Source: an uncultured Clostridia bacterium
GTDB taxonomy: Bacteria > Bacillota > Clostridia > Christensenellales > Borkfalkiaceae
Direction of reading: 5' to 3'
DNA length: 64,000 nucleotides
Assembly: GCA_904419945.1 (NCBI GenBank)
Contig: CAJFTM010000002.1
Coordinates: 42,051 to 106,050 of the forward strand
Below are positions 18,209 to 32,335 of this stretch, in pieces. The position numbers and the translations under genes are program-made. A model generated the notes under the pieces. It ran no database searches. It was not told the DNA's origin and saw only the letters and a list, made by a program, of their open reading frames with translations. Numbering within the stretch: position 1 is the stretch's first letter; each line of letters opens with the position of its first letter.

Positions 18209-18330
18209 GGGGTGAATTTCCGTGATTTATTAAAGGTGTGCCCTTAAAATTCGCGGAAAGAGGGGAAAACCGTTCGGGTTTCCCCTCCCCCCCCTCACGG
18301 CTTTTTCTTTTGTCAGCTCAAAAGAAAAAG
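18209..18330 (-). repeat. Composite three-hairpin repeat, copy 1
   Basis: Read on the minus strand: hairpin 1 with 12-base arms CTTTTTCTTTTG / CAAAAGAAAAAG and loop AGCTGA (18330-18301); then CCGTGA; hairpin 2 (GGGGAAACC / GGTTTTCCCC); stem 3 (TTTCCG / CGGAAA) enclosing TTTTAAGGGCACACCTTT; then ATTCACCCC. It directly follows the hslU stop in the direction of transcription. Confidence 0.75.
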
Positions 18331-18340
18331 CGTTGAATTC

Positions 18341-19648
18341 TTACAACACATACTTCTTCAAGTCGCGGTCGCTGATGACCTTGTCGAGATGCTCGTCGAC
18401 ATATTTCTGGTCGATGGTGACGGTGACAGTCGGATAATCGCCGCCGGCATTGAAGGAGATGTCTTCCAGCAGATATTCCATGACCGTATGCAGCCGGCGG
18501 GCGCCGATATCCTCGCTGGTCGCGTTCATATCGGCGGAGATCTGCGCGATCTCCTCGATGGCGTCATCGGTAAAGTGCAGGTCGATATTGTCGACGGCGA
18601 GCAGCTTGCCGTACTGTGCAGTGATGGCGTTTTGCGGCTGGGTGAGGATCTTGACGAAGTCATCCTTGGAGAGGCTCTCCAGCTCGACGTTGATGGGGAA
18701 GCGCCCCTGCAGCTCGGGGATGAGGTCCTCCACTTTGGAGAGGTGGAATGCCCCCGCCGCGATGAAGAGGATAAAGTCCGTCTTGACCGGGCCGTACTTG
18801 GTCATGACCGTGCAGCCCTCGACGATGGGCAGGATATCGCGCTGGACGCCCTCGCGCGAGACATCCGCGCCGCCGCGATTCTCCTTGCCGGCGATCTTAT
18901 CGATCTCGTCGATGAAGATGATGCCCTGTTCCTCGGCGCGGCGCAGGGCCTCGGCGTTGACGGAGTCGTTGTCGATGAGTTTTTCGCTCTCTTCGGCGAT
19001 GAGCTGCTGCATTGCCTGCTTTACGCTCATCTTGCGGCGTTTTCTCTTTTTGGGGAGCATTTCCCCGAAAATGGAGCCGATGTTGATCTCGGCGCCGCCG
19101 GGCACGAGCTCCATGCTCTTGGGCGTATCGACCACCTCGATCTCGATCTGCGTATCGTCAAACTTGCCGGCATGCAGGTCCTCGAGCAGCTTGGCATCGA
19201 ATACTTCCTTGGCCATTTCGCCCCGCTCCCCCTTCTTCATTTCGGAAAGGACGGCGATAACCTTCTTTTCGGCGGCGGCCTCCGCCTTTACGGAGACCTC
19301 CTTCATCTTTTCCTCCTTGACGAGGCGGATGGAGCACTCGACGAGGTCGCGCACCATGCTCTCGACGTCGCGGCCGACATAGCCGACCTCGGTGTATTTG
19401 GTCGCTTCGACCTTGATAAAGGGCGCCTTGACCAGCTTGGCGAGGCGGCGGGCGATCTCCGTTTTGCCGACGCCCGTCGGGCCCTTCATGATGATGTTTT
19501 TGGGCGTGATCTCCTCGCGGTCCGCCTCCGAAAGGCGGCTGCGGCGGTAGCGGTTGCGCAGCGCAATGGCGACCGCGCGCTTGGCCTTATCCTGCCCGAT
19601 GATGTATTTATCCAATTCGTTTACGATCTGTTTGGGTGATAAACTCAT
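18341..19648 (-). CDS. hslU: ATP-dependent protease ATPase subunit HslU
   Basis: AAA+ unfoldase of the HslUV (ClpYQ) protease, 435 residues. Walker A Gly-Pro-Thr-Gly-Val-Gly-Lys-Thr (56-63), Walker B Ile-Ile-Phe-Ile-Asp-Glu-Ile-Asp, the I-domain in the middle, and a C-terminal sensor-2 region ending Lys-Lys-Tyr-Val-Leu, of the kind that docks into HslV. GGGAGGTC precedes the ATG. Third gene of the CIRCE-controlled trmFO-hslV-hslU unit, 139 bases after hslV. Confidence 0.95.
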   Translation of the reverse strand: MSLSPKQIVNELDKYIIGQDKAKRAVAIALRNRYRRSRLSEADREEITPKNIIMKGPTGVGKTEIARRLAKLVKAPFIKVEATKYTEVGYVGRDVESMVRDLVECSIRLVKEEKMKEVSVKAEAAAEKKVIAVLSEMKKGERGEMAKEVFDAKLLEDLHAGKFDDTQIEIEVVDTPKSMELVPGGAEINIGSIFGEMLPKKRKRRKMSVKQAMQQLIAEESEKLIDNDSVNAEALRRAEEQGIIFIDEIDKIAGKENRGGADVSREGVQRDILPIVEGCTVMTKYGPVKTDFILFIAAGAFHLSKVEDLIPELQGRFPINVELESLSKDDFVKILTQPQNAITAQYGKLLAVDNIDLHFTDDAIEEIAQISADMNATSEDIGARRLHTVMEYLLEDISFNAGGDYPTVTVTIDQKYVDEHLDKVISDRDLKKYVL

Positions 19649-19787
19649 AATTTAATGACCTCCCTTGGCGCCCGTTGCGGCGCCCGATCCGGGTATATTC
19701 TTCGAGAAATGGTTGAACCGATCCTTTTGCGGCAGGCCGTATATATGGCGCTGCCGCCGCTGCCGATGCCCGGCACTTTGCCGCGCG

Positions 19788-20324
19788 TCAGACCTCTTCG
19801 ACGATGATATGGTCGTTGGTGAAGACGCAGATCTCGCTGGCGATCTTGAGCGACTTATAGGCGATCTCCGAAGCGGTGTAGCCGGTCTCCTGCAGCAGGG
19901 CGCGGCCCGCCGCAAGGGCATAGTTGCCGCCGCTGCCGATGGCACACACGCCGCCGTCCGGCTCGATCACTTCGCCGTTGCCGCTGACGATGAGCAGCTG
20001 ATCCTTGTCGGCGACGATCATCATCGCCTCGAGCTTGCGCACCATCTTGTCGTTGCGCCACATTTCGGCGAGTTCGACCGCCGAGCGCATGAGGTTGCCC
20101 GAAAACTTGTTCAGCATCCCCTCAAACCGCTCGGAGAGGGAAAAGGCGTCCGCCACGGAACCTGCAAAGCCCAAAATGACCTTGCCGCCGTAGATGCGGC
20201 GCACCTTGACCGCATTGTTTTTGAAGACGACCGATTCGCCCATGGTGACCTGTCCGTCACCGGCGATCGCCGTTTTGCCGTCCTTTTTGACGGCGCATAT
20301 CGTTGTACCTCTGAATTCCGGCAT
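19788..20324 (-). CDS. hslV: ATP-dependent protease subunit HslV
   Basis: Threonine peptidase of the HslUV complex, 178 residues. The mature N-terminal Thr is Thr7 in Gly-Thr-Thr-Ile, after a short propeptide Met-Pro-Glu-Phe-Arg-Gly; the Ala-Gly-Asp-Gly-Gln and Ile-Gly-Ser-Gly-Gly segments of the active site are present. GGAGGTC precedes the ATG. It lies 18 bases after trmFO. Confidence 0.95.
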   Translation of the reverse strand: MPEFRGTTICAVKKDGKTAIAGDGQVTMGESVVFKNNAVKVRRIYGGKVILGFAGSVADAFSLSERFEGMLNKFSGNLMRSAVELAEMWRNDKMVRKLEAMMIVADKDQLLIVSGNGEVIEPDGGVCAIGSGGNYALAAGRALLQETGYTASEIAYKSLKIASEICVFTNDHIIVEEV

Positions 20325-20342
20325 GATTGACCTCCGTAAATT

Positions 20343-31228: not shown

Positions 31229-32088
31229 GACTCCGCCTCCCCCGCTTCTGCGGGCAGCGCGTCCAGCGTGATGCGGCCGAGGCGGCCCTTGCGGAAGTCA
31301 TCCACGATCGCCTTGGCGCCGCGCTCGTAGTCCACCTCCCCGCCGCGCAGCAAAAAGCCGCGGCGGCGGCAGATATGCTCGTAGGCGGCAATGGGAGAAG
31401 AATAGTCTCCCTCCCCGTAGCGCGCGGCGAGCAGCCCCGGATAGGATGCGAGCAGCTCGCGCAGCAGCTCTAAAGCGACGTCGTCCATGTCGAGGATGTC
31501 GTCGTTGATGCTGCCGATATAGGCGAGATGCCGCGCGAGAGCTTGATCTTCAAAGGCGGGAGGCATGGTGCCGGGGGTATCCAAAAGCTCAAATCCCGCG
31601 CAGCGGATCCACTGCTTGCCGCGGGTGACGCCTGCCTTGTCCCCGGTGACGGCGCGCTTGGCGCCGCTGAGAGCGTTGATGACCGTACTCTTGCCCGTAT
31701 TCGGAATACCGACGACCATCAACCGGGGCGGCCGCGTGATCCCCTTTGCCGCATCGCGCGCGAGCTTTTCGCGCAGCAGCGACGGAATGCGCCCGGAGAT
31801 CTGCCGCGCGGCCGCAGACGTCGTGGCGCAGCAGCGCACGTTTGCCTCGCCGGCGCGGTCCATCCGGGCGCAGAAAGCTGCCGTCTTCTCCTCGTCGGCG
31901 AGGTCCGCCTTGTTGAGGAGATAGAGCACCGGCTTGCCGCCCAGCAAAGACTCTAAATTCGGATTGCGGGTCGCCAGCGGAGCGCGCGCATCGAGGACGA
32001 AGAGCACGCCGTCTACCAGCTTGACCTGCTCCTCCATCATGCGCATGGCCTTCGTCATGTGGCCGGGAAACCATTGGATGTGTTTCAT
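31225..32088 (-). CDS. rbgA: Ribosome biogenesis GTPase RbgA (YlqF)
   Basis: Circularly permuted GTPase for late 50S assembly, 287 residues. The motif order G4-G1-G3 is seen: Asn-Lys-Ala-Asp (59-62), Gly-Ile-Pro-Asn-Thr-Gly-Lys-Ser (127-134), Asp-Thr-Pro-Gly (170-173). The N-terminus Met-Lys-His-Ile-Gln-Trp-Phe-Pro-Gly-His-Met is diagnostic. AAGGAGAG precedes the ATG. It is separated from trmD by 283 bases that hold repeat copies 4 and 5. Confidence 0.95.
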   Translation of the reverse strand: MKHIQWFPGHMTKAMRMMEEQVKLVDGVLFVLDARAPLATRNPNLESLLGGKPVLYLLNKADLADEEKTAAFCARMDRAGEANVRCCATTSAAARQISGRIPSLLREKLARDAAKGITRPPRLMVVGIPNTGKSTVINALSGAKRAVTGDKAGVTRGKQWIRCAGFELLDTPGTMPPAFEDQALARHLAYIGSINDDILDMDDVALELLRELLASYPGLLAARYGEGDYSSPIAAYEHICRRRGFLLRGGEVDYERGAKAIVDDFRKGRLGRITLDALPAEAGEAES

Positions 32089-32140
32089 AACTCTCCTTCG
32101 CGCAATTTCTTTCAAAAGAGGTGAAAGAAATTTTGCTCGT

Positions 32141-32269
32141 GAAATTTGTTTTGAGCTGACAAAACAAATTTCTACGATTGGGGAGAGGGGAAACCCGAGC
32201 GGTTTTCCCCTCTGCGGCGCGCCTTTCAGGGCACACCTTTGAACGCGCGCAAAAATTCACCCGCTGAGG
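32141..32269 (+). repeat. Composite three-hairpin repeat, copy 4
   Basis: Hairpin 1 at 32141-32172 with perfect 13-base arms GAAATTTGTTTTG / CAAAACAAATTTC and loop AGCTGA; then CTACGAT; hairpin 2 GAGGGGAAAACC-type as in copy 1; stem 3 GCGCGC / GCGCGC around CTTTCAGGGCACACCTTT; then ATTCACCCGCTGAGG, the same ending as copy 2. Confidence 0.75.
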
Positions 32270-32299
32270 CGCTTACGTGCAAATTCTCTCGGATTCACA

Positions 32300-32335
32300 C
32301 TTTTTCTTTTGAGCTGACAAAAGAAAAAATCGTGA
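32300..32335 (+). repeat. Composite repeat, copy 5 (hairpin 1 only)
   Basis: CTTTTTCTTTTG-AGCTGA-CAAAAGAAAAA followed by TCGTGA. It has the same TTCACAC 5' flank as copy 3 but stops there, close to the trmD end. Confidence 0.7.

Follow-up and report, generated by a model that had tools for sequence, protein, structure and literature searches.

What fills the gaps between genes in a 64,000-nt stretch of an uncultured Clostridia bacterium of the family Borkfalkiaceae, where hairpins with identical loops recur on dissimilar stems? This stretch (positions 42,051 to 106,050 of contig CAJFTM010000002.1), hereafter the window, comes from contig 2 of an assembly of 1.68 Mb and 49 contigs. A prediction made from its letters alone had described five copies of an intergenic repeat with three hairpins and proposed a structured RNA, a mobile element resembling miniature inverted-repeat transposable elements (MITEs) or repetitive extragenic palindromes (REPs), or a module terminating transcripts. 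All five copies lie where they had been placed, and their core matches are far above chance: TTTTGAGCTGACAAAA has five exact matches and one with three mismatches in the window, against 0.37 expected within three mismatches, and TTTTAAGGGCACACCTTT has four within three mismatches, against 0.00 expected. The family consists of dispersed, polar, intergenic units, each about 190 bp long, in which five consecutive hairpins have fixed loops on stems that are freely exchanged. We put at an even chance the reading that it is a REP/REPIN-like non-autonomous mobile DNA element whose hairpins are recognised as folded single-stranded DNA, and of the three original proposals the MITE/REP-like one fits best, with gaps filled in some species and empty in others and with copies in both orientations.

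A five-hairpin unit whose stems change in pairs

Read together with the bases behind them, the copies resolve into a unit of about 190 bp in which five hairpins keep their loops while their stems vary in step. The three hairpins first described are real, but two more, hairpins 4 and 5, follow 3' of ATTCACCC, and the supposed CGTGA/TACGA tag is in fact the 3' foot of hairpin 1, which pairs with TCAC/TCGT at the 5' foot and is preceded by a bulged pyrimidine. Hairpin 1 is laid out as TCNN, a 13-pair stem, the loop AGCTGA, the second arm, one bulged pyrimidine and NNGA; hairpin 2 occurs in three length classes; hairpin 3 has a stem of 8-10 pairs enclosing TTTTAAGGGCACACCTTT; and hairpin 4 is a short free stem ahead of AAAT-GGG, as in GTCGCAGGTATGCGAC. 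Hairpin 5 combines AAAA, a six-base loop (e.g., GCGTGG or GTGTGA) and TTTT with a free outer stem that ends in CTTTTTC or GCGC, and some hairpins 5 finish in TTTTGCCTTTTTC. Copies were searched with two covariance models, R1 for hairpins 1-3 and R2 for hairpins 4-5; R1 aligns hairpin 2 poorly because of its three length classes. Where four full copies and one partial copy had been counted in the window, units 1 to 3 are full, but copy 4 lacks an R2 match and copy 5 is hairpin 1 alone (Table 1).

Paired change is clearest in hairpin 1, for which 86 distinct sequences were compared, namely those with R1 scores of at least 40 bits, a length of 41 nt and the form TC...GA, a selection that drops the CTCGGC...GCCTGC class. 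Base pairing holds in 98.6% of 1462 cells, with 300 changes on both sides of the stem and 4 on one side, whereas column shuffles give 75.5% pairing and 80.1 double changes, and slid partners reach at most 54.4% and 89. The central pair, for which a switch from C-G to G-C had been noted, does switch (GC in 58 sequences, CG in 20, UA in 4, AU in 3 and another combination in 1). Across hairpins 1-3, an alignment of 91 distinct rows, itself fitted to the model, contains 571 double changes against 175 in shuffled columns, and the outer stem of hairpin 3, variable yet paired as described, is 91.0% paired, with both-side changes in all eight modelled pairs. Since kinship among copies inflates counts of double changes, more weight is placed on the distance to the slid controls and on orthologous loci. 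At one orthologous site, hairpin 4 reads GTCGCA/TGCGAC in L277 and GCCGCA/TGCGGC in L278 on the gene strand, and the entire hairpin 1 stem of L282 differs as a block from that of L277 and L278, with matching surroundings. The earlier conclusion that paired change around fixed loops is not random decay holds against both kinds of control.

Whether such stems are maintained as RNA can be approached through G-U pairs, which a stem held in RNA is expected to pass through while avoiding A-C. Hairpin 1 has 6 G-U and 13 A-C combinations in its 1462 cells; hairpin 5, in copies that follow its loop pattern, has 3 and 8 of 306; and hairpin 3, in stems with at least six of nine Watson-Crick pairs, has 7 and 5 of 369. 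By comparison, the 242 stem cells of 11 distinct tRNAs detected in these sequences, mismatched positions included, contain 20 G-U and 5 A-C. With G-U nearly absent and no commoner than A-C, the hairpin 1 pattern therefore does not resemble constraint on an RNA strand, and, given the difference from the tRNA control, the stems of hairpins 1, 3 and 5 have the look of palindromes that are either maintained as DNA or corrected between their arms. Minimum-free-energy folds of 129 whole units contain 5.5% G-U in sense, 4.8% in antisense and 13.2% in shuffled units, figures that were set aside because these folds take in pairs outside the consensus stems.

The bulge of hairpin 1 is C or T in 85 of the 86 distinct sequences, and its retention argues against pure arm-to-arm correction. 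It also tracks the third base of the foot, being C in 63 of 63 sequences with A or T there and T in 22 of 23 with G. Among 109 flanked hairpins 1, position -2 is G in 70 and position -1 is C or T in 108, followed by the TC that pairs with GA, a pairing that the filter behind this count requires. Three positions, namely -1, the third of the foot and the bulge, tend to occur together as (T, A or T, C) or as (C, G, T), for example at 24250-24290 of the window; position -1 is C in 33 of 33 cases with G as the third foot base, yet also in 12 with A. This three-way link could reflect two lineages or a guide-like contact.

Spread, gene edges and filled gaps

The proposed search of the own genome and its relatives for many intergenic copies was positive. 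In the own genome, R1 has 55 matches at E<=0.1, of which 31 reach at least 38 bits with mutual overlaps of no more than 2 bases, some of the lower-scoring remainder being palindromes matched a second time on the opposite strand. Within the genus, taken to be Candidatus Borkfalkia, 36 of 40 genomes (own included) have R1 matches at E<=0.01, from 1 to at least 84 each, and matches occur in 27 of 121 genomes of the family (4 of 18 genera sampled), both sets of counts being lower bounds drawn from at most 84 or 27 scored candidates per genome. At the level of the order, 6 of 151 genomes have matches; the two in G120, a genome of a different family, seem by eye to be unrelated sequences. Copies of sister genera keep the five-hairpin layout, and several lie against Shine-Dalgarno sites, as judged by eye. 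A search of viral contigs with one exact hairpin 1 pattern returned 0 matches and therefore no sign of phage carriage for that hairpin 1 core.

The position of units relative to genes is strongly polar. The set analysed comprises 130 full units, 42 first halves and 20 second halves, 192 in all, after exclusion of three duplicate places (L136/L249, L147/L258 and L153/L261) and of units overlapping a better match, including opposite-strand overlaps of more than 20 bases. Genes were called with a simple hexamer script, so single distances can be off, and the gene names used below (hslU, topA, trmD, rbgA, dprA, hisS, rimM and others) are presumed ones, assigned by eye. Nearly all copies of at least 50 bits (128 of 130) are intergenic. 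Where a stop codon faces hairpin 1, the distance is 10 nt or less in 64 of 74 cases, 17 of these with the match running into the called gene end; where a start codon faces it, the distance is 25 nt or less in 28 of 41. For hairpin 5 the corresponding counts within 25 nt are 0 of 22 for stops and 2 of 29 for starts (Fisher p=8e-15 and 1e-7, respectively). Hairpin 1 sometimes contains the stop codon of the gene itself, as for trmD in L135 and L160, and some hairpins 1 sit just upstream of a Shine-Dalgarno site. Both orientations occur: when hairpin 1 is no more than 60 nt from a gene, 56 of 82 units are sense to that gene and 26 antisense.

The same polarity governs arrays. Neighbouring units within 350 bp are tandem in 68 cases (4 of them overlapping calls), tail-to-tail in 21, with 10-14 nt between model ends in 14 of these, and head-to-head in none; two apparent head-to-head pairs, in L042 and L094, each share one palindrome and were dropped as opposite-strand overlaps. 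In 103 of 104 gene gaps the orientations follow the pattern >*<*, in which any forward units (>) all precede any reverse ones (<), the exception being '><><' in a called gap of 1434 nt in L085. Gene pairs flanking 96 unit-bearing gaps are co-directional in 80, convergent in 14 and divergent in 2, compared with 240, 25 and 26 among 291 pairs from 19 long regions, so that divergent gaps are rare among unit gaps (Fisher p=0.02). Units between co-directional neighbours include those of dprA-topA, trmD-rbgA and a string of fatty-acid genes, the latter also named by eye.

Comparison of orthologous gaps reveals filled and empty states. Between trmD and rbgA, where R1 was run over all 80 loci and R2 over 38 and where rbgA is missing in 5 of the 80, 15 of the 75 colinear loci contain a unit, and L198 adds a weak match of 20 bits. 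Of the 60 gaps without a unit, 36 measure no more than 60 nt, and in one short gap (L160) a decayed hairpin 1 is discernible by eye. Between dprA and topA, 13 of 30 loci carry units, and the 12 of these that show both genes have gaps of 244-1127 nt; among the 17 loci without units, eight gaps measure 27-68 nt and one (L267) has 532 nt of other sequence. Close species differ in the number and orientation of units at the same site: G062 has no unit at dprA-topA though it is 95% identical to the window over the searched part of TopA, and in G030 a further partial unit abuts the Shine-Dalgarno site of topA, with GAGGAG on both sides (L264 vs L262). At hslU-hisS, one arrangement is common to G016 and G019, and G000 has a different hairpin 1.

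Several side observations concern the composition of these gaps. The trmD-rbgA gap of L137 and L140 contains extra reading frames, one flavodoxin-like by eye and one of no recognised kind, which suggests a gap generally prone to insertion. A second repeat (...CTCCTCCTCTTCCCAAAAA...TTTTTGGGAACCCT, plus variants) is nested in hairpin 2 or 3 of several units, in L265, L277, L278 and L287 (dprA-topA gap) and at 3693-3979 of L248. Short GTTCACRAAA repeats stand two or three in a row ahead of hairpin 1 at the dprA edge of L280 and at about 1165-1200 of L081, as though older units had been invaded in their first arm by later ones. At the dprA edge of L263 (G019), an apparent older hairpin 1, of which the first half only remains, cut in the loop, is followed by another hairpin 1.

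Table 1. Repeat units and their hairpins in the window (positions counted from its first nucleotide).
Feature	Positions	Strand	Evidence
Unit 1, full, hairpins 1-5; sense to hslU, match starting three nt past the hslU stop codon	18142..18337	-	R1 18201-18337, 111 bits; R2 18142-18216, 58 bits; inverted repeats
Hairpin 1 of unit 1, loop AGCTGA (TCAGCT on the + strand)	18295..18336	-	arms 18295-18312 / 18319-18336
Unit 2, full; hairpin 1 flush with the topA Shine-Dalgarno site, antisense to topA	24248..24429	+	R1 24248-24381, 121 bits; R2 24354-24429
Hairpin 1 of unit 2	24250..24290	+	hairpin 1 extraction, inverted repeat
Unit 3, full, tandem after unit 2	24436..24643	+	R1 24436-24586, 111.4 bits; R2 24571-24643
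Hairpin 1 of unit 3	24438..24478	+	hairpin 1 extraction, inverted repeat
Hairpin 5 of unit 3	24607..24638	+	inverted repeat 24607-24622 / 24623-24638
Unit 4, hairpins 1-3 and part of 4, without hairpin 5	32135..32278	+	R1 122.9 bits; no R2 match
Copy 5, hairpin 1 alone, tandem after unit 4, near the trmD end	32295..32335	+	R1 32293-32393, 50.6 bits
Hairpin-1-like palindrome with a different loop, adjoining the rbgA Shine-Dalgarno site	32104..32132	.	inverted repeat, arms 100% complementary; outside R1 matches

Apart from the units of Table 1, the trmD-rimM gap of the window (33038-33915) measures 878 nt by our own gene calls, compared with 5 nt in G030 and G016, and contains extra reading frames, one of which has a tail resembling a second RimM at its end, as judged by eye.

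A proposed mobile DNA element and its rivals

Among known systems, the likeness to REPs and to the BIMEs and REPINs built from them is the closest in habit. REPs are high-copy intergenic palindromes found in both orientations, with unlike inverted partners, near the 3' ends of open reading frames, where they may supply the stop codon, as described in PMC3733652, and PMC8266576 has the transposase TnpA-REP reading loop and bulge in the folded single strand. The present units are likewise high-copy and intergenic, occur in both orientations and in unlike inverted pairs, lie at the 3' ends of reading frames and occasionally supply a stop. They differ in having about 190 bp and five hairpins instead of a single palindrome of 20-40 bp; in lacking the unpaired GTAG or CGTC tag, the foot being mostly G-Y-TC with TC paired to GA; in having no Y1 partner found in these incomplete assemblies, where REPs have a RAYT/Y1 enzyme; and in lying flush also with Shine-Dalgarno sites and forming 0 head-to-head pairs. 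As the tests of tag, size and partner fail, the elements are not filed as REPs.

BOX, ERIC, NEMIS and similar composite or MITE-like repeats are intergenic, form stem-loops and measure about 100-200 bp. The present units are intergenic, stem-loop forming and of similar size, a likeness judged from descriptions only; those in the consulted passages of PMC2267715, which counts BOX, ERIC, NEMIS and others as stem-loop families, mention neither paired divergence of consecutive stems nor a fixed end at reading-frame edges. The units also have the MITE features of being non-coding, dispersed and present or absent at orthologous sites. No description of this element was found in a literature search whose reach left out most subscription journals.

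Recombination of single-strand hairpins takes place at the ends of IS200/IS605 elements and at integron attC sites, in which the stem is largely free and the loop and an extrahelical base are fixed, giving strand polarity. Hairpin 1 shares the free stem, the fixed loop, the extrahelical base and the polarity. However, IS200/IS605 elements carry tnpA (Y1) between their hairpin ends, whereas no Y1 gene was found between the units here, and the attC core RYYYAAC/GTTRRRY was not seen in hairpin 1 when compared by eye. Hairpin contacts of IS608 are described in PMC8266576.

In the favoured reading, a recombinase or transposase acting in trans would bind hairpin 1 through the AGCTGA loop and the bulged pyrimidine, with the hairpins recognised as a folded single strand, and would join the hairpin 1 end beside coding sequence. 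Later copies would enter the AT-rich stretch behind hairpin 5, producing arrays with heads outward, and any effects at mRNA ends, such as pausing past the stop codon or shielding of the 3' end, would arise as side effects of insertion. A bolder version, which we advance tentatively and consider a possibility rather than an expectation, is that the units form a new class of mobile DNA with a five-hairpin shape code, in which loops and one bulge are read and stems are free, a single-strand recombinase joins hairpin 1 exactly to coding edges, and heads-outward arrays replace the spacers of housekeeping strings in a bacterial family.

Several observations weigh against a mobile DNA element recognised in folded single-strand form. 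The 40 genus genomes yielded no partner enzyme, although incomplete assemblies may hide one. The Y1 transposase (PF01797), tried as a candidate, matches in 23 of the 40 without relation to the units: all 17 genomes without Y1 carry units, the four unit-free genomes (G002, G005, G033 and G062) have 3-7 Y1 matches, and 30 fetched Y1 loci contain a single weak R1 match of 16 bits. Reverse transcriptase was likewise rejected, being present in 4 of the 40 genomes, one of them (G005) unit-free. The exact placement of the hairpin 1 end at coding sequence is unexplained by the insertion mechanisms known to us, and there is no clear target duplication, the one possible 6-nt case, GAGGAG, being a Shine-Dalgarno sequence that could recur by chance. 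Pairing is weaker in helix 2 (69.5%) and in the inner helix of hairpin 3 (77.8%), where G-U cells are common (22 and 29), and the hairpin 1 loop of sister genera, judged by eye, is not AGCTGA (AAGCCGT in L293 and L301). Finally, template switching from arm to arm could keep stems paired with no recognition at all. PF04986 (IS91-like) had no match, but the search controls were equally silent; no cargo was recognised between > and < units in four regions (L242, L243, L251 and L249), whose genes appear housekeeping-like by eye; and no transposon sharing > / < inverted unit ends was found.

The objection from template switching leads to an ordinary MITE whose palindromes are kept perfect by quasipalindrome correction, that is, template switching between the arms, and whose loops are conserved through recent spread alone, with no structural recognition. 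The scarcity of intermediates in hairpin 1 (4 one-side against 300 both-side changes), the block exchange of its stem in L282 with unchanged flanks and the different loop in sister genera all favour it; yet correction should erase the bulged pyrimidine that nearly every sequence retains, the loop is constant within the genus across 86 different stems, and neither strict polarity nor position at gene edges is predicted, which makes this account rather unlikely. We assign a similarly low probability to a structured RNA of mRNA ends, with hairpins selected in the transcript and hairpin 1 acting behind the stop codon, through ribosome pausing or 3' end protection, or before the Shine-Dalgarno site. 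Its attraction lies in the flush position at stops and Shine-Dalgarno sites, the rarity of divergent gaps (2/96 vs 26/291), the G-U cells in the weaker helices 2 and 4 of the alignment and the behaviour of E. coli REPs, which stall ribosomes when within 15 nt of the stop codon, according to PMC12306157. The units, however, take both orientations to the gene, G-U does not exceed A-C in hairpins 1 and 5 as it does in tRNAs, by 20 to 5, and the window copies match no Rfam family, the sole Rfam match of the window being a tRNA. The RNA proposal of the original prediction is weakened to that extent.

The remaining proposal, intrinsic terminators or bidirectional insulators spread between genes, has lost more ground and now appears improbable. 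Some hairpins 5 do end in TTTTGCCTTTTTC, 14 of the 96 unit gaps are convergent, and a terminator scan finds 42 candidates against 18.7 in shuffles of the same region. An intrinsic terminator, however, combines a stem rich in G+C with a T run in every copy, and here hairpin 5 has two types of tail, many copies finishing in GCGC arms with no T run; units also stand between the co-directional neighbours named above, the scan called only some of the window hairpins terminator-like, and antisense units make up 26 of the 82 near a gene.

Dozens of variants per genome make the family a natural data set that allows stem sequence, loop, bulge, polarity and insertion position to be told apart. The near absence of G-U pairs helps, as a simple test, to distinguish DNA palindromes from RNA structures, and cautions that strong covariation alone is no proof of RNA. 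Were the units RNA after all, they would represent a large family of elements at mRNA edges. If they are mobile DNA, they would point to a recombinase that reads structure and does not belong to the known RAYT group, and would show how short intergenic spacers can be filled by repeats while the genes beside them stay unbroken.

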